DNA of 64,000 bases, taken from positions 62,001 to 126,000 of IMG/VR virus record IMGVR_UViG_3300010158_000027; one strand, 5' to 3'. The notes under the pieces are model-generated. The model was given only the letters and a program-made list of their open reading frames with translations. It was not told the DNA's origin and did no database searches. The stretch is from a virus. A program made the translations under genes and the position numbers. Shown here piece by piece: positions 1,139-20,717 of the stretch; within the stretch, counting starts at the first letter, position 1; every line of letters starts with the position of its first letter.

Positions 1139-2917
1139 ATGAGTCTTACAAGGGAGCAAGCATTATTAGAATACGCTAAATGTGTAAAAGATACCCCTTA
1201 CGCACTTAAAACTTATTTACAAACTTACGATAATACCCAATCACAATACGTACCCTTAGAGTTATTTAATGATCAAGTAACGTTAGTTAATGACTATGAT
1301 ACTTGTGAAGAGAATATCGCATTAAAATACAGACAAGCTGGAGTATCAACCGTAACGTCAGCATGGGCATCCAAAAGATTGGTATTCGCCAGTAAAAAGA
1401 AACCTGAAAAAATTCTAATCATTGCAAACAAAATGGATACCGCCCAAGAGATGGGAAATAAGGTTCGAGCGTTTGTTGATCAATGGCCAAAATGGTTGGG
1501 TGTTGGTTTTTCTGTAGAAAAAAACTCCCAGAGACATTTTAAACTAACTAACGGTTGTGAAGTAAAGGCGGTTGCAACATCTAAAGATGCTTTACGTGGA
1601 TATACCCCAACGATATTAATATTCGATGAGGCGGCATATATCAATGCCGATGAGGACTTTTGGTCAGCATGTATGGCTTCCCTATCTACAGGGGGTAAAG
1701 TTATCGTAATATCAACACCAAATGGATTTGATCCAATTTACTATTCAATTTATAGTCAAGCGGTAAAAGGAATGAACGACTTTAAGATTACAGAAATGTA
1801 TTGGTTTAGAGATCCGAGATATTCTAAAGATTTAAAACTAATTAAATGTAATGATATTATTCATTACATGCTAAATAGAGGTGATTACGTCGATTCTGAC
1901 ATTACATTAGATTATAGTAACATTAAAGTTAGTGATCGTGATTTTAAAGAAATAAAAAATAGAGTAGAAAACGAAGGATACAAAGCCTATAGTTCGTGGT
2001 TTGAGTCTATGGCTAAAAAGTTAAAATTCGATAAAAGAAAAATATCACAAGAGTTAGAGTGTAACTTTTTAGGATCTGGGGATAGTGTTATCCCTTCTGA
2101 AACTATGAAAAAAATAAAGGAAACTCACATTAAAGAACCTATAAACAAACATATGGGTGGGGCTCTTTGGCAATGGAAAGAACCGGTGGCTGGTCACAGA
2201 TATATTTTAGGGGCTGACGTTTCTCGTGGTGATAGTGAGGATTTTAGTACCTTATGTATTATTGATTTTGACGCTAGGGAACAGGTATTAGAATATATCG
2301 GTAAAATACCCCCCGATGTGTTGGCTGAAATTGCTTTTAAATGGGGAACTATGTATGGGGCTTTTATTGTTACAGATATCACTGGAGGTATGGGTGTTTC
2401 CACTTCAAGAAAACTACAAGAATTAGGATATAAGAATTTATACGTTGATGGGGTTAACCCTGCAGATAAATGGAAATGGGATCCAAAAAACCAAGATAAG
2501 ATTCCAGGAATTAACTTTAACTCAAAACGAGTTCTAATCGTTCAAGCATTAGAGGAGGCATTAAGATTTGATTTCTCCATGAGGTCCCAAAGATTATTTA
2601 ATGAACTAAATACTTTTGTGTATGTGAACGGTAGACCCGATCACCAAAAAGGGCAACACGATGATTTAATTATGGCAATAGCCATGGCAATATATGTCGG
2701 TGAAACCTCATTTGCACAATTAGAAAAAGCAACAGAACAAACAAAGACACTATTGGACTCTTGGACTACAGATAGTAATACGTTTGCTGACTCCCATCAA
2801 AATTTTAACCCCGGAATACCTGTTGATCCGTACGGTAGTTATGGACAACAAAGGAACGCCATAACTAAAAGCGACTATGAGCAGTATTTATGGTTATTCG
2901 GAAATAAAAGAGTTTAA
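1139..2917 (+). CDS. terL: terminase large subunit (T4 gp17-like)
   Basis: A 592-residue packaging motor ATPase and headful nuclease. The N-terminal ATPase has a Walker A variant YRQAGVST at 64-71, the Walker B segment ILIFDEAA at 159-166 and the coupling motif ISTPNG at 191-196. The C-terminal RNase H-like nuclease shows acidic residues in ILGADVSRGD (D360), FIVTDITGG (D413) and HDDLIMA near residue 505. Length fits the gp17 family. In infection it docks on the portal and pumps DNA into the prohead. Here it lies directly upstream of the portal gene; T4 has tail sheath and tube genes (18, 19) between the two. Confidence 0.97.
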   Translation: MSLTREQALLEYAKCVKDTPYALKTYLQTYDNTQSQYVPLELFNDQVTLVNDYDTCEENIALKYRQAGVSTVTSAWASKRLVFASKKKPEKILIIANKMDTAQEMGNKVRAFVDQWPKWLGVGFSVEKNSQRHFKLTNGCEVKAVATSKDALRGYTPTILIFDEAAYINADEDFWSACMASLSTGGKVIVISTPNGFDPIYYSIYSQAVKGMNDFKITEMYWFRDPRYSKDLKLIKCNDIIHYMLNRGDYVDSDITLDYSNIKVSDRDFKEIKNRVENEGYKAYSSWFESMAKKLKFDKRKISQELECNFLGSGDSVIPSETMKKIKETHIKEPINKHMGGALWQWKEPVAGHRYILGADVSRGDSEDFSTLCIIDFDAREQVLEYIGKIPPDVLAEIAFKWGTMYGAFIVTDITGGMGVSTSRKLQELGYKNLYVDGVNPADKWKWDPKNQDKIPGINFNSKRVLIVQALEEALRFDFSMRSQRLFNELNTFVYVNGRPDHQKGQHDDLIMAIAMAIYVGETSFAQLEKATEQTKTLLDSWTTDSNTFADSHQNFNPGIPVDPYGSYGQQRNAITKSDYEQYLWLFGNKRV

Positions 2918-2956
2918 TTTTATTATTTCCGCACTACTTTTAAAATAAAAACAATT

Positions 2957-5734
2957 ATGGCACAAGAGAAATTTACGGTTTGGCAAAGGTTAGGTAGAGT
3001 GTTTGGACCGAACGCAACTTTAGATCAACAATCACCCGTATTTAAATTTGATAAGAAAGAACTTTTAAAAACGACAGATAAGCAGGAATACGAGACTGAA
3101 AAACTGCAAGCTCAGCAAACCATGTATATCGGCAAGCAATGGCAAAAAGTCGAAAGCAATCTATACCAACAGGCGGTTTATTATGAACCAACACGGATGG
3201 CATCATATTATGATTACGAAAGTATGGAATATTGCATTGCAGGAGAAACTAAAATAGCGACTCCGAATGGTTTTATTACCATAAAAGAGTTGGCCGATAA
3301 GGGTAGGGATTATGAATTCATAACTTATGCTTATGATCATAATGAAAAAAAGGTGGTACCAGCAATGGCAAGAAATGCTCATTATACCCGTGATGAGATG
3401 ACATATAAAATTACTTTTGATGATGGGACTCACATTATTACGACTTGGGAACATCAATTAATGAAACGAGACGGTTCGTTTGAACGTGTTATGAATCTTA
3501 AATCAGGCGATTCTATGATGCCGTTTTATAGAAAATCATTTTATAATAATGAAAAATATAATTGGGTATACACATGTAATTCAAATGAAGGACATAATGG
3601 GTGGATTTCTGAACATAATATTATTGCTGAATGGTTTTATGATAAAAAAATAAATAAAGACGAAGAAGTTCATCACATAGATTTTAATGGTAAAAATAAT
3701 TTACCTGAAAATTTACAAATAATGAACATTTCTGAACATCGTTCTTACCACGCAAAACTCAATAATGAGAAATTGTGGTCAAACCCTGAATTTAGAGCAA
3801 AAATGTCAGAAGTTGCAAAAAGAAAAGGTAAGATGTCTTGGGGTGGTAAAAGGAGTGGCATTAATAATCCCGCTTATATTAAATTACCATTTGATAATAT
3901 TATTGAAAACGCTAGAAAATTTAAAGCATTAAAGAAAACTGCGGATTCATTAAATGTTTCTTACCGTAAATTACAACGAGAAATTATTAATTCAGGGTAT
4001 AAAGATTGGTCAACATTTTTGGATGCTTATGGGATTAAAAAATCACCCTATTCAACGGCAACAGCTAAAGGGGATAAAATAGTTGTTAACCATAAAATAG
4101 TTTCAATAGAACCTCATGGTGTGATACCTGTTTATGATTTAACAGTCCCTGGTTATAAAAACTTTGCAACAGATACCATATTCTCACATAATACTCCTGA
4201 AATTTCGGCAGCATTAGATATATATGCTGAAGAATCCACAACTCCCGACCAAGACGGACACATCATTAAAATTTATTCAGAATCAAAAAGAATAAAACAA
4301 GTCTTAACGGATTTATTTGTTTCCAAACTTGATATAAATACGAACTTACCCATGTGGACAAGAAACACATGTAAATTTGGTGATAATTTTATTTATTTAA
4401 AGTTAGACACTGAAAAAGGTGTGGTTGGTTGTCAACAATTACCAAATATCCAAATAGAGAGACTAGAGAGGGGTATGAGATTCCAACCCGATAAGTATTC
4501 TCAGGAAATGGAGAACGACGCATTAAAATTCGTTTGGAAAGAGAAGAACATGGAATTCAATACTTGGGAGGTTGGACACTTTAGATTATTGGGTGACGAT
4601 AGAAAATTACCATATGGTACATCTATGTTAGAAAAGGCAAGACGTATTTGGAAACAATTATTACTTTGTGAAGATGCGATGTTAATATATAGAGTTTCTA
4701 GAGCTCCCGAAAGACGGGTGTTTAAAGTATTCGTGGGTAACATGGACGATAAAGATGTTGATGCTTACGTACAAAGAGTTGCAAATAAATTTAAAAGAGA
4801 TCAGGTTGTTGATAATAAAACGGGTAATGTCGATATGAGATATAATCAATTGGCGGTTGATCAAGATTTCTTTATCCCTGTTCGTGATCCAGCAGCAACA
4901 AACCCTATCGAGACATTACCTGGAGCACAAAACTTAGCTGAAATTGCGGATATTGAATACATACAGAAAAAACTTGTAACCGCTCTAAGAATACCTAAAG
5001 CTTATTTAGGGTTTGAAGAGGCTATCGGAGGTGGTAATAATTTATCATTACTTGATATCCGTTTTGCTAGAACAATCAATAAAATTCAAAAATCAATGTT
5101 AGCTGAATTAAATAAAATAGCAATCATTCATTTATTTTTATTGGGGTTTGAGGATGAATTAACGAATTTTAGTTTAGGACTTAACAATCCATCTAAACAA
5201 GGTGAACTATTATCACTTGAGGTATGGAAAGAAAAGATATTACTTTACAAGGATGCGGTTGCTGAGATACCTAATTCAGTTGGCGCCGTATCAGCATCTT
5301 GGGGTAAGAAACATATTTTAGGTTTCTCTGATGAGGAGATTAAACTTGATATACAACAACAACGAATTGAAAGGGCGGTATCTGCAGAATTAACTAAAAC
5401 TGCTGAGGTAATAACTAAAACGGGGTTATTCGATAATATAGATAAACTTTATGGTACTAAGGTTGCTGCACCAGCACCCGAAGGTGCACCATCAGAAGAT
5501 GGGGGGGAACCATCCGAAATGGGAGGATTAACACCACCACCATCATCTGGACCTGAAGAACCGGCCCCACCACCTGAAATGGGGGGATTGACACCTGAAA
5601 GATTAGTGAGAAATGATTTAAATATGCTCTTAGAGGAAACATTAATAAACGGATCAGACTACATGGATTTATCTAAAGGTAGAGTTTCTTTAGGGTTAAT
5701 CGATGAAAAATTGAGACAAATGCTAGATAAGTAA
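2957..5734 (+). CDS. gp20: portal protein (T4 gp20-like) interrupted in frame by an intein
   Basis: A 925-residue reading frame that should yield a portal of about 605 residues after protein splicing. The dodecameric portal forms the packaging vertex and head-tail connector. N-extein residues 1-92 end in YYDYESMEY and the C-extein resumes at Thr413 with TPEISAALDIYAEES; joined they give the continuous YTPEISAALDIYAE typical of gp20 relatives. Downstream, segments such as WEVGHFRLLGD and LRIPKAYLGFEEA also match the family. The C-terminal 100 residues carry a Pro/Gly-rich PPP/EMGGLTP repeat. The intein is described separately. The start follows an A-rich leader ending AAAACAATT. Confidence 0.95.
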   Translation: MAQEKFTVWQRLGRVFGPNATLDQQSPVFKFDKKELLKTTDKQEYETEKLQAQQTMYIGKQWQKVESNLYQQAVYYEPTRMASYYDYESMEYCIAGETKIATPNGFITIKELADKGRDYEFITYAYDHNEKKVVPAMARNAHYTRDEMTYKITFDDGTHIITTWEHQLMKRDGSFERVMNLKSGDSMMPFYRKSFYNNEKYNWVYTCNSNEGHNGWISEHNIIAEWFYDKKINKDEEVHHIDFNGKNNLPENLQIMNISEHRSYHAKLNNEKLWSNPEFRAKMSEVAKRKGKMSWGGKRSGINNPAYIKLPFDNIIENARKFKALKKTADSLNVSYRKLQREIINSGYKDWSTFLDAYGIKKSPYSTATAKGDKIVVNHKIVSIEPHGVIPVYDLTVPGYKNFATDTIFSHNTPEISAALDIYAEESTTPDQDGHIIKIYSESKRIKQVLTDLFVSKLDINTNLPMWTRNTCKFGDNFIYLKLDTEKGVVGCQQLPNIQIERLERGMRFQPDKYSQEMENDALKFVWKEKNMEFNTWEVGHFRLLGDDRKLPYGTSMLEKARRIWKQLLLCEDAMLIYRVSRAPERRVFKVFVGNMDDKDVDAYVQRVANKFKRDQVVDNKTGNVDMRYNQLAVDQDFFIPVRDPAATNPIETLPGAQNLAEIADIEYIQKKLVTALRIPKAYLGFEEAIGGGNNLSLLDIRFARTINKIQKSMLAELNKIAIIHLFLLGFEDELTNFSLGLNNPSKQGELLSLEVWKEKILLYKDAVAEIPNSVGAVSASWGKKHILGFSDEEIKLDIQQQRIERAVSAELTKTAEVITKTGLFDNIDKLYGTKVAAPAPEGAPSEDGGEPSEMGGLTPPPSSGPEEPAPPPEMGGLTPERLVRNDLNMLLEETLINGSDYMDLSKGRVSLGLIDEKLRQMLDK
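3233..4192 (+). mobile_element. intein with HNH homing endonuclease domain inside the portal gene
   Basis: Codons 93-412 of the portal frame (320 residues). Splicing blocks visible: block A begins CIAGETKIATPNGFITI (Cys93 nucleophile); block B is DGTHIITTWEHQLM; block F is VYDLTVPGYKNFAT; block G is the terminal FSHN with penultimate His411 and terminal Asn412, followed by Thr413 as the +1 nucleophile. Between blocks B and F, residues about 236-270 hold an HNH-type nuclease (EEVHHIDFNGKNN, then LPENLQIM and SEHRSYHAKL). The element therefore combines self-splicing with a homing nuclease that would target intein-less portal genes. Confidence 0.93.
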
Positions 5735-8665: not shown

Positions 8666-10153
8666 ATGTATACTGAAAATAACAAGTCAATAGTGGAGAC
8701 AGCTTTACTGCAAATTAAGGCAGTTGAGGACGCTATTAGTGAAAACGCAAAAGGAATACTTGCTTCAACGATGAAGGAAGAAATCAGTGAATTAGTTAGA
8801 GAATCACTAGTTGGTTCTAAAAAAACAAAATTACGTGAACAAGAAGAACAAGACCCTAATTTAGAGGTGGATGTAGAAGATGACGTTGACGTAGAAGACC
8901 CTGAAATGTCGGATGAGGAGGAACCTGAAACGGAACCTGAAGATCTAGAAACGGAACCTGAAGATGGTATGCCGTCTTTTGGTGATTTTAACTTATCAGA
9001 TGAAGGTGATAATCAAGAAATGCCTCCGTTAGATATGACTCAAGCACCAATTGGCGATGTACTTAAAGTATTTAGAGCAATGGGTGATGAAGACGGTATT
9101 ATTGTTGCTAAAGATAATGATGACATTTATCTTAAAGATGGTGACCATGAATACATTATTAGAACGGGAGCTGAAGAAACAAATACTCAAGAAATGATGG
9201 GAGACCAAATGAAAGAGGACGTTTTATATGAATTAGTTTTGGAAGACGAAGATGAAGATGGTGAGACTTTCGAATCCTATTTAGATGAAGAAGAAGAAAC
9301 TTATGAAAATGATTACGAAGAATTTAGAGAGTCGGCTAAAGTCGATGAACCTATGTTCGAAGATGAAGATGAAGATGAAACTGTTTACGAATTAGACGTT
9401 AACGAGATTGAATCTGTTATGGAAACTTTTAAAGCTAAAGGTATCGGAATGGGTAAAGCTGGAAACGGAATGAGTAAAGCTTCAGTAAACCTTAAAGGGT
9501 TTAAAGAAGATAAAAAATCAGGAGGTAGAGGAATCACAGGTAAAGGACCAAACTTCAAGTACCCTTCAATCAAACACGGAGTTACCGAAACAGACATGGA
9601 TGATGAGGAATTCAATGAGTGGGAAGAGGAAAGTAATGAGGGTATCGTGGATACTGAAACGACTGAATCGTCAAGAACCTTAGGTAAAGGAAGGTCTCAC
9701 GGACGTAATGGGTTACCTAAACCAAGAACATATTCATCACATGTAAGAAAAGAGTCAGTTGAGACAGAAATGAATCAGTTAAGAGAAAAAAATGATGAAT
9801 ATAAAAAAGCATTAGACTTCTTTAGAACAAAATTAAATGAGGTGGCGGTTTTCAATTCTAACTTAGCTTACTCAACAAGATTGTTTACTGAGCATTCTAC
9901 AACAAAACAAGAGAAAATAAATATACTTAGAAGATTCGATACTGTTGAATCTATTAAGGAATCTAAAAATCTTTACCAATCAATCAAAAAAGACTTAGAC
10001 GGAAAAGGTACAAGTGAAGTGGTTACTGAATCTATTCAGAATAAAGTAACTAGAACACCTCAAACCGGATCATCATCTAATTTGATTGAAAGTAAAACGT
10101 ACGAGAATCCTCAATTCATGAGAATGAAGGATTTAATGACAAAAATAAAATAA
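8666..10153 (+). CDS. gp22: prohead scaffold/core protein (T4 gp22-like)
   Basis: A 495-residue very acidic protein. After an N-terminal helical segment (residues 1-50) come long Glu/Asp-rich stretches (EEEPETEPEDLETEPED and similar), then a Gly/Lys-rich middle and a helical C-terminus. It lies between protease and capsid genes, the place of the gp22 scaffold, which forms the core around which gp23 assembles and is degraded by gp21. Identification is by position, acidity and helix content rather than by a sequence motif. Confidence 0.75.
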   Translation: MYTENNKSIVETALLQIKAVEDAISENAKGILASTMKEEISELVRESLVGSKKTKLREQEEQDPNLEVDVEDDVDVEDPEMSDEEEPETEPEDLETEPEDGMPSFGDFNLSDEGDNQEMPPLDMTQAPIGDVLKVFRAMGDEDGIIVAKDNDDIYLKDGDHEYIIRTGAEETNTQEMMGDQMKEDVLYELVLEDEDEDGETFESYLDEEEETYENDYEEFRESAKVDEPMFEDEDEDETVYELDVNEIESVMETFKAKGIGMGKAGNGMSKASVNLKGFKEDKKSGGRGITGKGPNFKYPSIKHGVTETDMDDEEFNEWEEESNEGIVDTETTESSRTLGKGRSHGRNGLPKPRTYSSHVRKESVETEMNQLREKNDEYKKALDFFRTKLNEVAVFNSNLAYSTRLFTEHSTTKQEKINILRRFDTVESIKESKNLYQSIKKDLDGKGTSEVVTESIQNKVTRTPQTGSSSNLIESKTYENPQFMRMKDLMTKIK

Positions 10154-10179
10154 AATAAACTCAATTAAAAAATAAAAAA

Positions 10180-11982
10180 ATGGGAGCATTATTAGAATCA
10201 GGTCTTGTTGGTAACATCGGGTTAAAACACCTTAAAGTTATCAAAGAAGATACAATTAACAAATGGGATCGTTTAGGATTCCTAGATGGTTTGAAAGGAC
10301 ACATCAAAGAAAACATGGCGCAATTATATGAAAATCAAGCGTCTCACTTAATAAATGAAGCATCATCTACAGATAGCTCAGGTTCATTCGAAACTGTAGT
10401 TTTTCCTATCGTTAGACGTGTATTCTCTAAATTGTTGGCTAACGATTTAGTATCTGTACAAGCAATGAACTTACCTATCGGTAAATTGTTCTACTTCGTA
10501 CCTAAAATTCAAGGATACCAAGCTGCAGGAACTAATGAAACTGCACATTACGGACCTATTGGAGCTGATGGTGGACCAACACAAGCTCAAGCTCAGGCTG
10601 GTTACGGTGCGAATGACAAAAACCTTTACGATAGATTTTATGAAGGTAATGAACCAGGATTAGATCCAGCAGGTCTTTTTGATTATTCAAAAGGTTCTTT
10701 CACAGCAATTACTTCAAGTAATGTTGGTACTGTTGCTTGGTCAAACGGTCAATTAGTTGCTTCAGGTTACGGAGCAAGTAATGAGTATAGAAAAGTACTT
10801 ATTGGAATGTCTGGATTCTCTAACGCAGGAGCTGGTAAATTAATCGGACCTGATGGTCAAGAAATGGATAACGAATCTTTCTTAACTGATTTAAGGGTTA
10901 ATGCGGTTTCAACAGGAGCGTTTTCTGGAATGGGTTCAGGTGATGTACTTTTTAGAGTTGTTACTCAAAAATATGGTAAAGGTATCGTACAATACGGAAC
11001 ACAAACAAACACTACTTGGTCTTCTACCGGTAACGGTGGAGCATACGATAACATCTGTTCTCAAGATGGTATCATTTATTTAGAAGTTGACTGTCAAGTT
11101 CCTTGTTCAGTTGGAGCTAACTCAATCGACGGATATTCAGGACTTACTACGTCAGTTGCTGGTACTGGCGCTGCTGGATCTCAATTTACTTGTACCTTCA
11201 AAAGATACAAAGAATTAGAATTTGAAGATCAAATTGGTGAAGTTTCTTTTGACCTTGAGTCAGTTACTGTATCTGTTACAGAAAGAAAATTAAGAGCACA
11301 ATGGTCTCCAGAATTAGCACAAGACGTTTCTGCATTCCACAACATCGATGCTGAAGCTGAATTAACGGCTTTATTGTCTGAACAAGTGGCTGCTGAGATT
11401 GACCGTGAGATTTTACGTGATTTACGTAAAGGTGCGGCTTGGACACTACGTTGGGATTACAACGGATGGAAAAGAGGTACTGCGGCTAACCCGTTAACTC
11501 AATACACACAAAAAGATTGGAATCAAACTTTGATTACTGCGATTAACCAAATTTCAGCACAAATCCACAAATCTACATTGAGAGGTGGAGCTAACTGGAT
11601 CGTAGTTTCTTCTGAGATTTCAGCTATCTTTGACGATTTAGAATACTTCCACGTATCTAACGCGTCTCCTGAACAAGACCAATATAACATGGGTATTGAA
11701 AGAGTTGGTACTCTTGCAGGACGTTACCAAGTGTTTAGAGACCCTTACTTCCCACCAAACACAATCTTGTTGGGTCACAAAGGAACTTCATTGTTAGATA
11801 CAGGGTACGTTTACGCACCATATGTACCGTTACAATTGACACCTACAATGTATAACCCATTCAACTTCACTCCGATTAAAGGAATTATGACGAGATACGC
11901 GAAAAAAATGGTAAACAACCGTTTCTATGGTAGAATTACTGTTGATGGTGTTCGTACATTTGACTTAAGAGAATTGAGATAA
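10180..11982 (+). CDS. gp23: major capsid protein (T4 gp23-like)
   Basis: A 600-residue HK97-fold capsid subunit. Family features include the N-terminal delta domain, FPIVRRVFSKLLANDLVSVQAMNLPIGKLFYF (about 76-107) and the C-terminal MTRYAKKMVNNRFYGRITV. A prohead-protease site of the (L/I)xE type is visible at INE/A, predicting cleavage after Glu60. A Ser/Gly-rich insertion of roughly 150 residues after position 170 looks like a surface domain. The start follows an A-rich leader without Shine-Dalgarno sequence. A strong terminator follows. Confidence 0.96.
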   Translation: MGALLESGLVGNIGLKHLKVIKEDTINKWDRLGFLDGLKGHIKENMAQLYENQASHLINEASSTDSSGSFETVVFPIVRRVFSKLLANDLVSVQAMNLPIGKLFYFVPKIQGYQAAGTNETAHYGPIGADGGPTQAQAQAGYGANDKNLYDRFYEGNEPGLDPAGLFDYSKGSFTAITSSNVGTVAWSNGQLVASGYGASNEYRKVLIGMSGFSNAGAGKLIGPDGQEMDNESFLTDLRVNAVSTGAFSGMGSGDVLFRVVTQKYGKGIVQYGTQTNTTWSSTGNGGAYDNICSQDGIIYLEVDCQVPCSVGANSIDGYSGLTTSVAGTGAAGSQFTCTFKRYKELEFEDQIGEVSFDLESVTVSVTERKLRAQWSPELAQDVSAFHNIDAEAELTALLSEQVAAEIDREILRDLRKGAAWTLRWDYNGWKRGTAANPLTQYTQKDWNQTLITAINQISAQIHKSTLRGGANWIVVSSEISAIFDDLEYFHVSNASPEQDQYNMGIERVGTLAGRYQVFRDPYFPPNTILLGHKGTSLLDTGYVYAPYVPLQLTPTMYNPFNFTPIKGIMTRYAKKMVNNRFYGRITVDGVRTFDLRELR

Positions 11983-12035: not shown

Positions 12036-12081
12036 GGTTAAAGAAAAATGGTGAGTGGGTTAAAAATAAATGGGTTATAAA

Positions 12082-12113
12082 TTGACTTTTTATATATTTT
12101 TATTATATTTATA
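12082..12113 (+). promoter_or_regulatory. promoter of the homing endonuclease gene
   Basis: TTGACT at 12082-12087, 16 nt, then TATATTTATATAAAA from 12104. It combines the early-type TTGAC/TATATTTA arrangement with the TATTTATA box (12106-12113), which ends 13 nt before the ATG at 12127. This argues that translation starts at 12127, not at ATG 12070 inside the promoter. Confidence 0.6.
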
Positions 12114-12126
12114 TAAAATGTTCGTA

Positions 12127-13845
12127 ATGAAAACTAAATTAACTCCCGATAATATATTAACAATTATTGAATTATATCAGACTGAAATACCAAGTACTCA
12201 TAAATTAGCGGAAAAGTTTAAAGTTGGACATAAAAAAATTAATCAATTATTAAAAGAGAATAATATTCAGATTAATAAAAAAGGGGGGCAAACTCAAATG
12301 GGTAATAGTCTCGAGATAGAATCGACTAAGAGTAAAATGTATTCTACTTCAGAAACAAAAGAATTAGTCGCTCAATGTGTCAAAACAAATATCATTATAA
12401 AAGACCCAAATAATCTATCGGGTAAATTAACAAAACATATTATTGAATTATATGGAGATGTTTGGCTACCAGCAAACACCTACCAAAGAAAAAAATATGA
12501 ACACATTAATGGTAAAAAATGGTTTGAAGATTATTTTAAGATAATAGAGGTTAATAAATCAATAAATAGAACTTGTAAGTTGTGTGAATGGACAACTACT
12601 GATACATCCAATAAAACAGGTGGTTTTGAGAATCATTTAGTTAATAGTCATAATTTACCATTAAATGATTATTTATCTAAATTCCCCGAAGATATTATAT
12701 ATCACCCAACCCATTCTAAAAAATTAGAGTTAACAAAATTTTTATCAATTAATTCAAATTTTGTTACTTGTAATTTATGTGGTGAAAAAATGAAAAGTAT
12801 TTCTAACACACATTTAAAGAGTAAACATAATATTACAACATTAGAATATAAACTAAAATACCCAAACAATAAAATTGTATCAACCTCTGTTTCAAAAAAA
12901 CTAAGCGACTTAGTTAAAATTACTAATATTAATATGACACCTACATGGACATCAAAGGGTGAAACTGAGATTAAAGAGTTTATTGAGAGTCTTGGGTTCG
13001 TAACAAATAAAGGTAAAAACCGAAAAATATTAGACGGTAAAGAGATTGATTTAATAATTGAAGGGACTAATATATGTATTGAATATAATGGATTGTATTA
13101 TCATACGGAAAGTATGGGTAAAAATAGTTCCTATCATTTAAATAAAACAATTGATTGTAATCAGATTGGTTATAAACTATTTCACATTTTTGAAGATGAA
13201 TGGAAAACAAACGAAGAGTTGGTTAAAAGGAAATTGAAGCATTTATTAAACGTTAATGATGGGATTAGAATTGGTGGGAGAAACGTTAAAATACAAAGTA
13301 TTACTTCCGAAGATAAATCATTTTTTCTAAAAAATAATCACATTCAAGGATCGGACAAATCTAACATATCATACGGAGCGTACTATAATGATGAATTAGT
13401 TGGTGTTATGACATTTAATAATAAGAGAAACATGACTAAAACCGCCAATGGGGAATTTGAGTTAAGTAGATTCGCTACTAAACAGAATTATGTTATTAGT
13501 GGTTTGGCATCAAAAATATTAAAACGTTTCGTTAAAGACCATTCACCAACGAGTATTGTTAGTTTTGCAGATAGAAGATGGACAATAGATGGTGATAATA
13601 ACTTATACACTAATTTAGGGTTTACTTTAGTGTCCATTACAAAACCAACGTACTATTATTATAATTCTAAGGTTAGTCGGTATAAAAGATTTCACAAATT
13701 TGGTTTCGGTAAAAATAATCTTAAAAAAAGATTTCCAGAATTAGATTATACTAAGACAGAAAAAGTATTAACTACCGAGTTGGGATATGACAGAATATGG
13801 GATTGTGGACTATTTAAGTATCAATTATTCATAAATAATAACTAG
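12127..13845 (+). CDS. free-standing homing endonuclease, Vsr/EDxHD-like, with zinc-finger DNA-binding modules
   Basis: About 572 residues. The N-terminus has a helix-turn-helix (THKLAEKFKVGHKKINQLL). Two Cys/His modules follow: CKLCEWTT...HLVNSH and CNLCGEKM...HLKSKHNITTLEYKLKYP, the latter resembling MucR-type fingers. A PD-(D/E)XK-like nuclease core follows: GETEIKEFIESLGF, then GKEIDLIIEGTNICIEYNG, YYHTE and KLFHIFEDEW. The C-terminal 180 residues (GAYYNDELVGVMTF, FADRRWT) form a further domain often fused to such phage nucleases. Placed right after the capsid gene, it could mobilise itself and the adjoining adhesin genes into related phages. Confidence 0.85.
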   Translation: MKTKLTPDNILTIIELYQTEIPSTHKLAEKFKVGHKKINQLLKENNIQINKKGGQTQMGNSLEIESTKSKMYSTSETKELVAQCVKTNIIIKDPNNLSGKLTKHIIELYGDVWLPANTYQRKKYEHINGKKWFEDYFKIIEVNKSINRTCKLCEWTTTDTSNKTGGFENHLVNSHNLPLNDYLSKFPEDIIYHPTHSKKLELTKFLSINSNFVTCNLCGEKMKSISNTHLKSKHNITTLEYKLKYPNNKIVSTSVSKKLSDLVKITNINMTPTWTSKGETEIKEFIESLGFVTNKGKNRKILDGKEIDLIIEGTNICIEYNGLYYHTESMGKNSSYHLNKTIDCNQIGYKLFHIFEDEWKTNEELVKRKLKHLLNVNDGIRIGGRNVKIQSITSEDKSFFLKNNHIQGSDKSNISYGAYYNDELVGVMTFNNKRNMTKTANGEFELSRFATKQNYVISGLASKILKRFVKDHSPTSIVSFADRRWTIDGDNNLYTNLGFTLVSITKPTYYYYNSKVSRYKRFHKFGFGKNNLKKRFPELDYTKTEKVLTTELGYDRIWDCGLFKYQLFINNN

Positions 13846-13852
13846 AAAGGGG

Positions 13853-13917
13853 TATTTATACATTCATATAGTTTTTTCATTATATTATTGTTTTAATGCT
13901 GTATATTTATAGTAAAA
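13853..13917 (+). promoter_or_regulatory. two TATTTATA boxes upstream of the secreted-protein operon
   Basis: TATTTATA at 13853-13860 and again at 13904-13911, the second followed by GTAAAATAC and ending 14 nt before the ATG at 13926. The second fits the consensus TATTTATAnTAAAA exactly. Confidence 0.6.
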
Positions 13918-13925
13918 TACATGTC

Positions 13926-16900
13926 ATGAAAAAAATACTATTTATTATCACTTTTTTATGGGCATTTGGTTTGTCCCATTCACAAGTCTCAACCAACTAC
14001 ACGTTTTCAGAAACCACTGGAACGTATGTCGCAGTAACATTGGGTACTCAGTTAGTAACAACAACTGCTGGAGCAACCTCATATGATACCGACGGTAGTT
14101 ATATCACATTATCATCAGGAAATCAATTCACATTTAATGGAACTACGATCACATCTGTTAATATGACGGCTGATGGAGCTCTTTGGTTAAATCCTGGAAC
14201 TTCAACAACAGGAAATGCTGTTACTGGTTCCATAACTTCAACAGCGACAGCTACTGGTGTTATATGTCCATTGAATATGGATTTAAGAAGTACTTCAGTT
14301 GCTTCAACCGTATATGAAAGAAGATGGTATGATGATGGAACTGAAGATATTTTTCAATGGCAAAATTGTGCTAGATATTTGCAAACTACTGAGAAAATTT
14401 CATTCCAAATTCGTATTAATAAATCTACCGGTGTAATACGTGTGGTATATGGTGCTATGACTGTAACTACATCTGTTACGTATCAACCATATGTTGGTTT
14501 AAGGGGGAGCGCAAATACTGACTTTAATAATAGACAATTAAGTGCAACAGTACCAGATGCCAGCCCAAACTGGGGGGCACCTAGTGGTACGGGTGCCGGA
14601 GCATCAAACGCTAACACATGTAGATTCCTTAGTACAGCATCATGTTTCCCATCGTCTGGGTTAATATTCATATGGACACCAAAACCGGTTATAACACCAT
14701 CGGTTTCTACATTATCGGCGTTTTCATCATGTTCAGGTAGCGTGTCTAGTACCCAAAACTTCACAGTAACGGGGTCTAATATGTTAGCTGGTATAACAAT
14801 AACACCCCCAGTTGGGTTCGAAGTATCGACAAGTTCCACATTTGCAAGTAGTGTTGGTACAAGTTCATCATCGTTAGTGGTAGGTGCTTCTGGTACAATT
14901 GCGTCAACAACAATATATGTTAGATTACAATCTACAGCATCAACAGGAACACCATCAGGAAACATAACATTAGCTAGTACTAGTGCAACAACCATGAATG
15001 TCGCAGTATCAGGAAATGTAGGTGTTAATCTATCTGCTGTGGTTGTGTCATCAAGTACTACCCAATCAATATGTTTAGGTAGTAATGGAACATCTGTATC
15101 TGTCGCTGAAACGGGTGGTGGAACAATCACCGCAAGACAATGGGGTAGACGATCAATTTCGGGTGGAGCAATAACTAATGTCACAGGAACCTCATCTTCA
15201 TATACACCATTAGGTACGGATTTCACAACGGTTGGTACGTATTATTTAGTATGTACATCAACACCTACTTGTGGGTCAGCTACGGTTTCAAATGAAGTTA
15301 CAATCACAATAGTTGGTTCTCCATCAGCCCCCGGCATACCAACAACCAATTCACCACAATGTGTATCTCCTGGTGTAACGTTAACGGCAAATGGTTCGGC
15401 ACCGGCTGGAGAAACTTGGTATTGGCAAACAACAAGTACTGGAGTTGCAACCACAAGTTTTGCAAGTACATATGTTGTTACAACATCAGGAACTTATTAT
15501 ATAAGATCTCAATACACATCAGGTGGTTGCTGGGGAAGTGCGTCGTCAGCAGCAATTGTTATTAGTACTGTACCATCGGCTCCTTCATTAACATCACCAA
15601 CTACAGCGGCTACTGGGGTAAGTTTAACACCAACATTAACTTGGGGTGCAGTTGCTGGAGCTACAAGTTATGATGTGTATATCGGAACAACCTTACCTGG
15701 AAGTCCGACAGCAAACGTATTAACCAATTCATATACACCATCTACATTGGCGGCATCAACAGGACATTCATGGAAAGTGATCGCTAAAAATGCGTGTGGT
15801 TCAAGTGTTGCGTCGTCCACATATACATTTACAACAACATGTGCGTCAGTTGCGTTAACATATACACAATTATTTAATGCCGCTACTACACCTTCATGTT
15901 GGTCAACATCTATTGCTGCTGTTCAAACCGGAACTAAGATATCGTATGTTACATCTTCAACATATCTGACAGCGTCACCTCAAGAAGGGACATATTTTGT
16001 AAAATATTATTCATATAGTAATTCAAATGGTGGATCTGGATCGGAAGAAAGATTAATTACACCATCAATTGTTACTACAAGTACATCAAGTGTTGATGTT
16101 GAATTTTATTGGTTTCAAGATAACAGTGCGTCATATAATAGTGGGTCTTATTTAAATGAAGGTGTAACGGTTGAATGGTCAACTAACGGAACAACTTGGA
16201 CGACATCAACATTTTATCCGAGACACGTAAGTTCGGCTTCGGCTACGGGTGAATGGTCCAAAAAAACAATAACATTACCTTCGGGAGCTGGAAATATCGC
16301 AACTTTATATGTGGCGTTTAAATTCCATTCTGAATATGGTTATAATATGTATATAGATAATGTTGTGATTAAACCAACACCAAGTTGTGCTGAGCCCACT
16401 TCATTAACTTCTTCATCTATTACTTCTACAACATCAACAATTTCATGGACAGCATCATCGTCATCACCATCGGGTGGGTATGACTATTATTTATCTACTT
16501 CATCAACCGCACCAACTGGTAGTTCAACACCAACAGGATCCGTCGGTTCGGGTGTGGTAACAACTAATTTAAGTAGTTTAACTAACTCAACATTATATTA
16601 TTATTGGGTTCGTTCAAATTGTGGTAGTTCAACTTATTCAACATGGGCCGGATCATCATTTACTACTCTAATACCAAATGACAATAGTGGTGGTGCTATC
16701 GACTTAACAATAAATCCAAGCACTACCTGTACAACCACAACTACAGGCACTAGTATTGGCGCAACTCAAACATTGGCGGCACAATCATTATATGGTACAG
16801 CTGATGATGATGTATGGTATAAATTTACAGCAACAGCCGTTAATTTAACTATGACAGTTGCTCGAGGTACTATGGGTGATTTGGTTGTTGAGGGATATAA

Positions 16901-17888
16901 TAGCTCATTAGTGTCTATGGGTGTCGTTGATGCTACTACTGGAACTGAAACTATAAATTGGACGGTAACTGTTGGGAATGTATATTATATTAGAGTTTAT
17001 AGTTATAGTTCATTAAGTAGTACTCGAGGAACATTTACTATCTGTATAACAACACCAACTCAGCCCCCAGTAAATGATAACGCATCCGGAGCTATAACGT
17101 TAATCGTTAATAACCCATACATAACAGGAACTAATGACGGGGCAACCTCATCGTCAACCGCACCAACACCAACAGGTCCATCTTATTATGGTGGAGATGT
17201 TTGGTATAAAGTGGTTGTACCCTCTGGTGGAACTTTTCAAATCAGAACATCGGCATTGGTATTAACAGATATCGTTATAGAGATATATTCGGGTACATCT
17301 TCAGCATTAACATATATAACATACAATGATGATAGTTCATCAGTAAATTCAATGTCATATTTAGAGGTAACCGGTAGAACTGTAGGTGAAACAATATGGA
17401 TTAGAGTTTGGGACTATAGTGGGGACAATACTGGAACATTCCAAATTAGAGTATCAACACCAGTCTCGTTACCTATTAGTTTAATATCATTTACGGGTCA
17501 CAATACGGTTGATGGTAATTCGTTGGAATGGAAAACAGCGTCTGAAGTTAACAGTGATTATTTCACATTGTCAAGGGGACTATATAGAGATGGTTCTGTC
17601 GAATGGTTAGAGTTACAATTTGTTAATGGTGCTGGTAATTCAAATATTATTAACACATACGGGTATTTCGATTTAGACTACCCAAACGATATAAATTATT
17701 ACCAATTAACTCAAACAGATTATGACGGTAATTCGGTAACATATGATATGATTTCTATCGATAATAGAATAAATAGTAAAATAATATCATCTATGGTAAA
17801 TTTACTTGGACAAGAGGTAAATGAAAACTATAGGGGAATTGTGGTTGTAACATACACAGATGGTTCTGTGGAAAAAATAATGAAATGA
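13926..17888 (+). CDS. large secreted adhesin-like protein with type IX secretion (type A) C-terminal domain
   Basis: About 1320 residues, Thr/Ser/Gly-rich. The start at 13926 gives a Sec signal peptide ([15 protein letters not shown], cleavage near SHSQ) and lies 14 nt after a late-type box; the longer frame from 13896 would begin inside the promoter. Approximate domains: flavobacterial N-terminal module 20-255; Ig-like segments 255-540; fibronectin III 551-636 ([15 protein letters not shown]); a MAM/cleaved-adhesin-like domain 641-818; fibronectin III 821-913; two prepeptidase C-terminal-like domains 916-1176 ([18 protein letters not shown]). The last 140 residues read [40 protein letters not shown], then NLLGQEV...[11 protein letters not shown]...K, the pattern of type A sorting domains. 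It should be exported by the host type IX system and anchored or released at the cell surface. Confidence 0.87.
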
Positions 17889-19171
17889 AAAAATTAATAA
17901 TAGTATTATCCTTTATTTTAAATTCAATATTAACCCTTGCTCAACCATCAAACGATGATTGTAGTGGAGCTCAGAATCTAGGAACATTACCAACACCCTC
18001 GGCATGTCCAAGTGGTGTTGGTTCTTTTGTTAATGTGGTGGGTACCACAATAAACGCAACCTCACCATCTCCTTATACCTATTTATTGGGTTGTCAAACG
18101 GGTGGTAATCAACCTGCACCTGCATTAGATGTATGGTATAAATTCGTCGCTTCAGGTACTCAAGTTAATATAAATATAACACCAGGATCAGCTCCCGTTT
18201 TACAAAGTCCATCAATAACATTATGGATCGGAACAAATTGTTCAACTCTTTCAGGGGTTAACTGTGATAATAATGGAACGGTTGCTGGTAATAATAGTGT
18301 AACTTTCCAACCATTAATTCCTGGAACAACATACTACATACAAGTTAGTGGAATGACTTCAGGTGGGTCAGGTAATTTTAACATGTCCGTTAATAGTACA
18401 AACGATTGTAATAATTGTTTACAAACGTCAAGTCTTACATCAATACCATCACCCACAAATGGAGCGTTTTTACCAAATCAGTCCGTATCTTTTTCTTATA
18501 CAATAACTACATACACACAAGTATCCGCCAATTGGTTACATGGAGTTATTCCAACATTTGGTAATGGGTGGGATTTATCAACACTAGTGAATGTTGCTGC
18601 TATCTCATGTTCGGGTAGTGGTACGTGGATTTGGTATAATAGTAATACTAGTACCGCAACTGGTACTACCACAGGACCTGGGTTTTACTATAATTATCCT
18701 GGTGGAACTGCCGGTAATAACTACGGTGATAATAACTCTTCTGGAGCATGTACTTGGACATTTTTCTGGGCAATTAAAACAAAACCAAACTGCACGTCGG
18801 GAACTAACTTAAACATTTCCATTAATACAACCGCTGATGGTGAGACTGGGTCTTGGACAAGCGTTGCTTGTTTGGGGGATCCTAATTATAGTTTTGGTGC
18901 TGTTTTAAATTGTTGTACCACTACAGCAACTTTCACAAACCCCACTTGTAATAATGGTACTAATGGAACGGCAACTGCTGTACCGAACGGAATCGCACCT
19001 TATACATATTCATGGAATACATCACCAATTCAAACAACACAAACAGCAACAAATCTACCATCAGGTACGTACACAGTTACAGTAACAGACGCATCTGGAT
19101 GTGTATCAACAGCGACAGTAACGATCATAAATCCAAGTCCAATAGTTGTTGGCAACATAATACATAATTAA
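17885..19171 (+). CDS. secreted protein with SprB repeat
   Basis: 428 residues with a Sec signal peptide ([22 protein letters not shown]). Residues 25-175 form a prepeptidase-like domain ([11 protein letters not shown]...[11 protein letters not shown]...YYIQVSG). Residues 343-415 are an SprB repeat ([18 protein letters not shown], then [16 protein letters not shown]), the module repeated in the gliding adhesin SprB of Flavobacterium. No type IX sorting domain is present; the protein ends GNIIHN. Its ATG overlaps the previous stop (ATGA at 17885-17888), so it is translationally coupled to the large adhesin gene. Confidence 0.85.
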
Positions 19172-19183
19172 AAATAAAAAGTC

Positions 19184-19747
19184 ATGAAAAAATTATTAAT
19201 CTTAGCTCTATCATTAATATCCTTAGTCGGATATTCTCAATCAACAGTAAATCCTGACACAGTTTGTTATCAAACAAATGGATCAACATACACGGTACCA
19301 TCTTTAGGTGCTGGGTATACGTATACATGGACAATCGCTTCACCTGGTGTGATAACTGCAGGACAAACAACGAATTCAATAGTTGTGGATTGGTCGACAG
19401 CATCTCCTGGTTTAATAAACAGTGGTGTAAGTGTTGTTGCTTCAAGTGCTAGTGGATGTTTAAGTACTCCCGTAACATTAAATGTTTTAATATACCAAGT
19501 ACTTCCAACGATTACCCCTATCGGGCCTTTCTGTACTGGCGCTGCTTGTGTTACTTTAGTTGGAACACCAATTGGTGGTGTATTTACAGGTACTGGGGTT
19601 GTCGGTAATCAATTTTGTCCTGTCACATCAGGTGTAGGAACATTTACATTAACTTATACTGTTACATCGTCTGGTTGTACGTTCACAACAACTACATCAG
19701 TTACGGTAACACCAATTCTAACACTATCTCCGATACAACATAATTAA
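19184..19747 (+). CDS. small secreted PKD-like protein
   Basis: 187 residues with a Sec signal peptide (MKKLLILALSLISLVGYSQ). Residues 22-110 look like a flavobacterial PKD-like domain (YTYTWTIASPGVITAGQ, then IVVDWSTASPG and SASGCLSTP). A second beta-rich segment follows (GTFTLTYTVTSSGCTFT). It ends SPIQHN, resembling the HN end of the preceding protein. It lies 12 nt after that gene and 1 nt before the next. It lacks a type IX sorting domain. Confidence 0.82.
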   Translation: MKKLLILALSLISLVGYSQSTVNPDTVCYQTNGSTYTVPSLGAGYTYTWTIASPGVITAGQTTNSIVVDWSTASPGLINSGVSVVASSASGCLSTPVTLNVLIYQVLPTITPIGPFCTGAACVTLVGTPIGGVFTGTGVVGNQFCPVTSGVGTFTLTYTVTSSGCTFTTTTSVTVTPILTLSPIQHN

Positions 19748-19748
19748 A

Positions 19749-20321
19749 ATGAAATTAATTTTAACAATATTATTTTTAACAGGTTTCTTCACATATTCTC
19801 AACAAGTCATTGAGATATGTGAGGGAGAATCTGTGTCTTATACATATTCGATTAATTCACAAATACCTATGAATTTTGATTGGGTAGTTAATGGCGATCA
19901 CTATTTGGTGGATGAGTTAACTATGGATTGGTCGGTTGCTGGGACATATGATATATCAGTAACAGGTTATTCCGTTAACGGAGATTGTCCATCTGATACC
20001 CAAAACTATAATGTTGTTGTTATTTTTTGTGAAGAAATGGTGTATTGGGTTCCTAATACATTTACACCAGACGATGATGAACATAATCAATATTTCTATC
20101 CTGTAATAACGGATGGTATTGATATTAATGATTTTACCTTTTTGATTTTTAATAGGTGGGGTGAGGTTATATGGGAATCTCATGATACCTCAGCTAAATG
20201 GGATGGGTATTATAAGGGAAAAAAATGTCAAGATGGGGTTTATATATGGAAGATGGTGTTTGGTATTAGTAGTAGTGATAAGAGAATCGATACACACGGA
20301 CATTTAAATATATTAAGATAA
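19749..20321 (+). CDS. short secreted protein ending in a type IX secretion type B (gliding-associated) C-terminal domain
   Basis: 190 residues with a Sec signal peptide (MKLILTILFLTGFFTYSQ). Residues 20-90 form one PKD-like domain. Residues about 98-190 match the gliding-motility-associated C-terminal domain: VPNTFTPDDDEHNQYFYP, then FLIFNRWGEVIWES, WDGYYKGKKCQDGVYIWKM and GHLNILR at the end. In host proteins this domain terminates very large adhesins; here it is fused to only one small domain. It is the last gene of the operon and would be secreted by the host type IX system. Confidence 0.9.
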   Translation: MKLILTILFLTGFFTYSQQVIEICEGESVSYTYSINSQIPMNFDWVVNGDHYLVDELTMDWSVAGTYDISVTGYSVNGDCPSDTQNYNVVVIFCEEMVYWVPNTFTPDDDEHNQYFYPVITDGIDINDFTFLIFNRWGEVIWESHDTSAKWDGYYKGKKCQDGVYIWKMVFGISSSDKRIDTHGHLNILR

Positions 20322-20352
20322 AATTAATGTGTGAGTTTTCCTAACCGACACA

Positions 20353-20360
20353 TATTTATA
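20353..20360 (+). promoter_or_regulatory. TATTTATA box upstream of HNH gene
   Basis: TATTTATA within the palindromic CATATTTATATG, ending 3 nt before the ATG at 20364. The spacing is shorter than at other sites, so its use as a promoter is less certain. Confidence 0.3.
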
Positions 20361-20363
20361 TGT

Positions 20364-20717
20364 ATGGAAAAGAAAAATAAGGTTGGTGGCGGTGGAAATA
20401 GACTAGCATACGAAAATGGACTTCTTAAATATATTAAATCTATTAGATTAACAAATGATGAAGTTTTTGTTGAAAACTCAACATACGCAAGACACCACAT
20501 TAAAAGACGAATAATTGAAGAGAATCTAGTTGATTACAAGTGTGATGAATGTGGTAATGTGGGTAGTTGGAATAATAAACCACTACCGTTGATTTTAGAC
20601 CACATAAATGGTATAAATAACGATAATAGGTTGGAAAATCTAAGATTTGTTTGTAGTAACTGCGATTCTCAATTACCAACCTATAAAAATAGGAGAGGTA
20701 GTAAAGGAAAAAAGTGA
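20364..20717 (+). CDS. HNH endonuclease
   Basis: 117 residues. Two Cys pairs (CDEC and CSNC) bracket the nuclease motif LILDHINGINNDNRLENLRFVC, a zinc-supported HNH fold. The N-terminal basic part (ARHHIKRRIIEENL) probably contacts DNA. It is a free-standing homing-type nuclease between the adhesin operon and the tRNA genes. The ATG at 20364 is preferred; a longer frame from 20331 adds eleven residues that overlap the TATTTATA box. Confidence 0.85.
   Translation: MEKKNKVGGGGNRLAYENGLLKYIKSIRLTNDEVFVENSTYARHHIKRRIIEENLVDYKCDECGNVGSWNNKPLPLILDHINGINNDNRLENLRFVCSNCDSQLPTYKNRRGSKGKK

Follow-up and report, generated by a model that had tools for sequence, protein, structure and literature searches.

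We find that three adjacent genes of a virus, termed B, C and D, almost certainly form a conserved split module, in which three chains with one signal peptide each stand where a single sorted protein could be expected. The genes are located in a DNA stretch of 64,000 nucleotides (the window), which covers positions 62001-126000 of a 281-kb virus record and encodes a T4-type major capsid protein at 10180-11982 (PF07068). The module is widespread among phages and also found in bacterial chromosomes, i.e., it is not a local oddity. As an explanation, we lean slightly towards a split T9SS substrate whose pieces, docked to each other via C-terminal tags, would leave the cell on D by means of the host machinery; the docking, the co-secretion and the benefit for the phage are steps that we infer.

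All window features given in the following are on the plus strand. Gene B (17885..19171) encodes 428 aa with a signal peptide (residues 1-19; 17885..17941), two N-terminal domains, an SprB-like repeat (residues 345-428) and the C-terminal tag GNIIHN (19151..19168). Gene C (19184..19747; 187 aa) combines a signal peptide (residues 1-18; 19184..19237), a PKD-like domain, a second Ig-like domain and the C-terminal tag SPIQHN (19727..19744). Gene D (19749..20321; 190 aa) consists of a signal peptide (residues 1-17; 19749..19799), a PKD-like domain and a type B sorting domain (CHU_C; residues 101-190; 20049..20318) that ends in GHLNILR. A previous, sequence-only reading of the window had proposed three adjacent open reading frames with individual signal peptides, which is borne out when judged by rule: the N-termini of B, C and D all show a basic n-region, a hydrophobic core and a Bacteroidota-type cleavage end, and the same rule is passed by 63/65 relatives of B, 66/66 of C and 61/62 of D.

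The same reading had assigned a type B sorting domain to D only, and this holds as well. D matches both PF13585 (CHU_C/type B; E 3.4e-13, 50 bits) and TIGR04131 (38.9 bits) above the respective curated cut-offs of 27 and 35, and the motifs PN.FTP, RWG, W.G and the terminal G.[VIL].[IL][IVL][RK] are invariant among 32 D relatives. For B and C, no CHU_C, TIGR04131 or TIGR04183 match is obtained up to E 1, i.e., both are without a C-terminal sorting domain of their own. Judging from these profiles, D is very probably a T9SS type B substrate, and it is from its sorting domain that we infer T9SS export of the trio. The PKD-like domain claimed for C could be confirmed (PKD_6, PF19408; E 5.6e-9, 36.7 bits, cut-off 25), while the SprB repeat claimed for B stands in part: it is not called by Pfam, which reports no confident domain in B at all, but residues 345-428 are 44-68% identical to repeats in a CHU_C protein (1670 aa) of another phage. 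The first 422 residues of B match the N-terminus of the same protein (67%). The AlphaFold2 model of C is mostly beta (pLDDT 90.5), with a mean pLDDT of 82 and no strand in the last seven residues; a Foldseek search with this model yields only weak matches to tandem Ig-like and cadherin structures.

A fourth secreted-looking gene, A (13926..17888; 1320 aa from its likely start), adjoins the trio and had not been part of the earlier claim. It shares an ATGA overlap with B, is without tag and also accompanies the trio in L002. The C-terminus of protein A resembles a T9SS type A sorting domain, though its 13 bits are below the cut-off of 23.

Next, we studied how often the split recurs. A search with C identified 109 relatives in viral contigs, 80 of which were retrieved and analysed. 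In 79/80 contigs, C is a complete stand-alone open reading frame with its own signal peptide; the remaining one is cut by the contig end. A B-type frame almost always precedes C and a D-type frame directly follows it, where the exceptions are contig ends and L078, in which no B is found directly upstream of C. Duplicate removal leaves 66 distinct trios from about 80 viral contigs, which are to be read as different sequences rather than independent lineages, some loci coming from sister samples. In other phages, the homologues thus recur as a trio instead of as unrelated single genes. It is also not a single-chain giant adhesin of the SprB type, since each of the three frames has its own start, stop and signal peptide throughout the 66 distinct trios. 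Among the records of the phage collection, C had a match in one uncultured huge phage and D in three that are likewise uncultured; named isolates gave none.

The sequence-only reading had allowed for frameshifts or sequencing errors at the stops. In the window, B and C do share a frame, with two in-frame TAA between them, such that an error, a decaying pseudogene or a single protein made by stop-codon readthrough could be imagined. The passage from C to D is a frame change. Spacing is mostly -1 base between C and D and 1-19 bases between B and C, and the trios differ in their junction frames (29/24/12 for B-C and 6/3/52 for C-D), which excludes a fused product by readthrough in general. Furthermore, stops, starts and signal peptides are kept in the 66 distinct trios, and the trio proteins of the window are 91-97% identical to those of L002 with a dN/dS of 0.10-0.19 (capsid protein: 77%). 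Together, these observations rule out error, decay and readthrough, to which we assign next to no probability.

Beside missing a sorting domain, B and C share their ending. The sequence-only reading had noted that both terminate in HN, with CATAATTAA around the stop. The stops are real, and the ending common to both proteins is I-x-H-N. Among the relatives, B ends in G[PNASV][IV]xHN in 64/64 sequences (G, H and N in 64/64, I in 63/64; in another relative set, HN is counted in 61/62), and C ends in [STQ]PI[QS]HN in 61/61 complete sequences, with P, I, H and N in every one of them. The codons vary. All four His-Asn codon pairs are represented, which implies that selection acts on the protein and rules out a DNA-level or translational-coupling cause of CATAATTAAAA. 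Coupling is also contradicted by two tagged proteins of L078 whose genes are not immediately followed by a tagged or CHU_C gene.

The tag is retained on B proteins of four make-ups: some consist of a single domain (about 200 aa), some are longer and have a repeat, as in the window, some are glycine-rich and have a repeat (PF12810 in L063), and those of L027 and L040 are a further type with repeat. In L078, two more secreted-looking proteins are tagged (2312-3466 and 9130-10497; GPIQHN and SSISHN); one extra tagged protein of this contig lies directly after D and features PKD and Ig_7 domains.

We also assessed how exclusive the motif is. Within 35 phage records (about 3.6 Mb) and two bacterial genomes (1.3 and 1.7 Mb), the only open reading frames of at least 50 aa that end in I-x-H-N are B, C and the two extra secreted L078 proteins. 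All 37 other matches of I-x-H-N-stop in the phage records end frames of at most 49 aa, and for the bacterial genomes, where 30/31 matches were examined, the only real frames with this end are B and C of each. The shared HN end is thus a nearly exclusive C-terminal motif. A use as a genome-wide secretome signal is unsupported, given that only B and C are tagged in the two bacterial genomes; the same applies to the 35 phage records, with the exception of L078.

The earlier suggestion to see whether concatenating the three proteins gives a collinear alignment, made there for host adhesins, is answered positively by comparison with single phage proteins. Single-chain forms in LR745206 (L009), L004 and L005 cover D completely, C almost completely and B at its end. 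Aligning the concatenated mature B-C-D of the window with L009 yields a local score of 926, while 50 shuffled queries reach at most 129. In L009 and L005 the C|D junction is gapless, in L004 five additional residues coincide with it, and at the B|C junction the fused forms are short of a few residues. In general, the fused phage CHU_C proteins (LR745206, LR756502, IMG/VR L004-L007, L095 and L096) resemble the trio in their domains and domain order, and L005 also in its genomic slot, but differ from it in being one chain with one signal peptide and without internal tag.

This comparison bears on the role of the tail. If the tail were the secretion signal itself, B and C would each be exported by the T9SS or another outer-membrane route that reads their last residues directly, i.e., neither would have to ride on D. 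Such reading would go along with the position of the motif at the very end, with its conservation up to the last residue and with its restriction to signal-peptide proteins without sorting domain, as well as with the tagged L078 protein found 4.5 kb away from C and D. Nevertheless, the tag always occurs where C and D are encoded too, the T9SS signals known so far take the form of folded domains, about 80-100 residues in length, and the tail replaces the linker of the fused protein, which is a better fit to docking. We consider direct reading rather unlikely, while the tail is probably a docking element.

Whether the fused or the split form came first was addressed with a tree of 37 C-type sequences, which is unrooted and contains several long branches. 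The fused phage forms make up one clade (94/88), and phage and bacterial sequences are separated with 98/97. Since the bacterial and most of the phage members are split and have common tags while the fused forms are one clade, fusion looks derived in this sequence set, i.e., the split appears to be older than the fused phage forms. The idea of a giant adhesin divided into parts, put forward in the sequence-only reading, is thereby retained with respect to the collinearity with fused forms, but its direction is probably wrong for these phages. Two side observations concern the surroundings of fused genes. At L009 12570-18262 (a 634-kb phage record), the neighbours of the fused gene are what we take by eye to be elongation factor G-like and aminoacyl-tRNA synthetase-like proteins. 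Phage proteins with type A-like C-termini are encoded near cassettes or fused genes at L095 6185-7873, L096 13243-14661 and L078 5308-6216, such that the T9SS use by phages may exceed type B.

With regard to genomic position, the fused gene of L005 is located between a tail-tube gene and a gene of 123 aa, followed by a baseplate-hub gene. The split trio comes right after the same tube gene in 22/80 contigs and, where the contig continues, before the same 123-aa and hub genes; in the four contigs compared, identity of the neighbouring tube, 123-aa and hub proteins is 69-93%. The main rival explanation for phages is based on this slot, namely that the trio is part of the virion, e.g., a tail-associated adhesin, whose signal peptides are unused or serve assembly at the membrane. 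The fused form in the same slot and the one weak PHROG match of B, which is to a virion protein (E 2.4e-6), agree with it; C and D are without PHROG match. On the other hand, almost every B, C and D has a signal peptide and D has its CHU_C domain, the neighbours in most contigs are not tail genes, and the same trio is found in bacterial chromosomes away from phage genes. A virion role is judged improbable.

To cover bacteria, we scanned GTDB contigs and subsequently 395 genomes of the order of Flavobacteriales bacterium TMED123. Seven genomes of this order (L200-L206) harbour the trio at one chromosomal site with the order guaA-like gene, LysM-type protein, larger CHU_C gene (in some), B, C and D, which is followed by lolA-like and ftsK-like genes in 5/7 genomes. 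Here, LysM and CHU_C were assigned by Pfam, while the guaA-like, lolA-like and ftsK-like genes are presumed from recognition of their sequence. The site is constant although the lengths of B and C differ greatly among the genomes. A more distant version of the trio, with ends H-D or H-E, is encoded by contigs labelled Bacteroidales and Acetofilamentum (two). Other matches of the C profile are mostly inside giant single-chain adhesins.

Within a bacterial operon, the tags of B and C are alike: INHY is found with IQHF, II[ST]N or IV[ST]N with II[FY]N, and HN with HN. Such resemblance per operon is expected if sites of like kind read both tags. The bacterial tags are also informative about a covalent alternative, in which the chains are rejoined after export by transpeptidation at the terminal Asn in an intein-like or ligase-like manner. 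HN is the last residue pair of inteins as well, and the mature C and D meet gaplessly relative to the fused L009 and L005. However, neither a Hint nor a ligase domain is present in the trio, and the final residue of bacterial tags is Y, F, D or E rather than N, so that chemistry at Asn is excluded in these. A split intein or asparagine ligation was rejected on these grounds, and covalent rejoining in general is highly improbable.

An L-type lectin domain is present in one of the bacterial B proteins (PF18483, 164.7 bits), such that, as far as its sequence tells, B is plausibly the binding part. This domain also bears on whether B and C reach the surface at all. Both are without sorting domain and could stay in the periplasm instead of crossing the outer membrane, with D alone exported and the tail acting in stability, in retention or in the inhibition of a periplasmic host protein. 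Adhesin-type domains such as the lectin speak against this, and the collinear fused proteins end in a type B domain, so that at least in these the B and C parts must travel together. Low odds are given to periplasmic retention, whereas joint export of B and C on D, as suggested in the sequence-only reading, is slightly favoured.

For such joint export, we propose the following course. B, C and D would each cross the inner membrane by their own signal peptide and fold in the periplasm. There, the free tail of B would dock on C and that of C on D, where the simplest docking site would be the PKD-like domain that begins both C and D. The resulting non-covalent B-C-D chain would then leave through the host T9SS translocon, together with a host shuttle of the PorP/SprF type, by virtue of the sorting domain of D. 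That is, B would act as exchangeable business end, C as coupler and D as export handle and anchor. A tethered B-C-D AlphaFold2 model (L047; two in-frame TAA read as Gln) is poor, with a pLDDT of 62.5, a pTM of 0.41 and a disordered C tail, and is neutral with respect to docking.

Type B substrates exit the translocon on PorP/SprF-like carriers and remain bound to them at the surface (PMC9143113, PMC12618676, PMC10994853). We found no PorP/SprF in 9 phage records and 2-7 each in 5 trio-bearing bacterial genomes; since the phage records are without them, a host shuttle would be needed for the export of D. When compared with T9SS type B substrates that use PorP/SprF shuttles (SprB, PG1035, Fjoh_3952; PMC9143113, PMC12618676), D is alike in its Sec-type signal peptide, its type B CTD and the preceding PKD-like domains. 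The described substrates are single chains, in contrast to the trio with its two partner chains that have a shared tag and no CTD, and with phages that have no shuttle. SprC and SprD of the sprB operon are candidates for known partners. Cryophage is reported to encode proteins for export by the host T9SS as well, but its cargo consists of single enzymes or PA14 proteins with type A sorting domains and no multi-chain substrate (PMC7468147). In the open-licence literature searched, neither a multi-chain T9SS substrate nor the present tag is described.

Joining of surface subunits by a terminal peptide is the working principle of donor-strand assembly in chaperone-usher pili, and tails are also recognised by PDZ-type domains. 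The trio would be alike in that separately exported beta-sandwich subunits are possibly joined by a terminal peptide. The likeness concerns this principle only and no homology is claimed; no usher, chaperone or PDZ domain is seen.

For the phage, the outcome would be a virus-made adhesin placed on the infected cell late in infection. Late expression is suggested by the 22 contigs in which the trio lies among tail genes. Huge phages are known to code for proteins with a predicted cell-surface location (PMC7162821). Late surface display could mask receptors or aggregate cells. Our preferred use is receptor masking, put forward tentatively and with considerable doubt. With so many viral contigs carrying the trio, it seems that infected Bacteroidota are given a virus-made surface, and superinfection exclusion as well as receptor masking become testable questions.

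In the current understanding, a T9SS substrate is one chain with its own sorting domain at the end. From a three-chain substrate that is conserved and has a nearly exclusive terminal tag, it follows that recruitment of cargo in trans is feasible; the predicted T9SS secretome would then extend to proteins that have no sorting domain. In the general form of this idea, a short free C-terminal peptide (about [G/S]-P-I-x-H-N) would be a docking address that couples proteins without T9SS sorting domain via the adaptor C to the carrier D for surface export, such that Bacteroidota and their phages both swap surface cargo without gene fusion; we consider the chances of this to be evenly balanced. If so, a small tag for surface display would be on offer. 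Further cases can be searched for by combining a signal peptide and an I-x-H-N end with a nearby CHU_C gene.

Finally, two observations refer to the window itself. When window positions 13813-20321 are compared with L002, the block A-B-C-D shows 90-94% DNA identity, while the capsid gene shows 79% and the downstream genes 65-75%. The block boundary is exactly at the stop of D, and the window flanks are HNH endonuclease genes (12070-13845 and 20331-20717). Block identity, exact end and HNH flanks together suggest a recent exchange as a cassette. The T4 late-promoter core TATAAATA occurs 27 times in the whole window compared with 15.5 expected, which is above all 100 shuffles.
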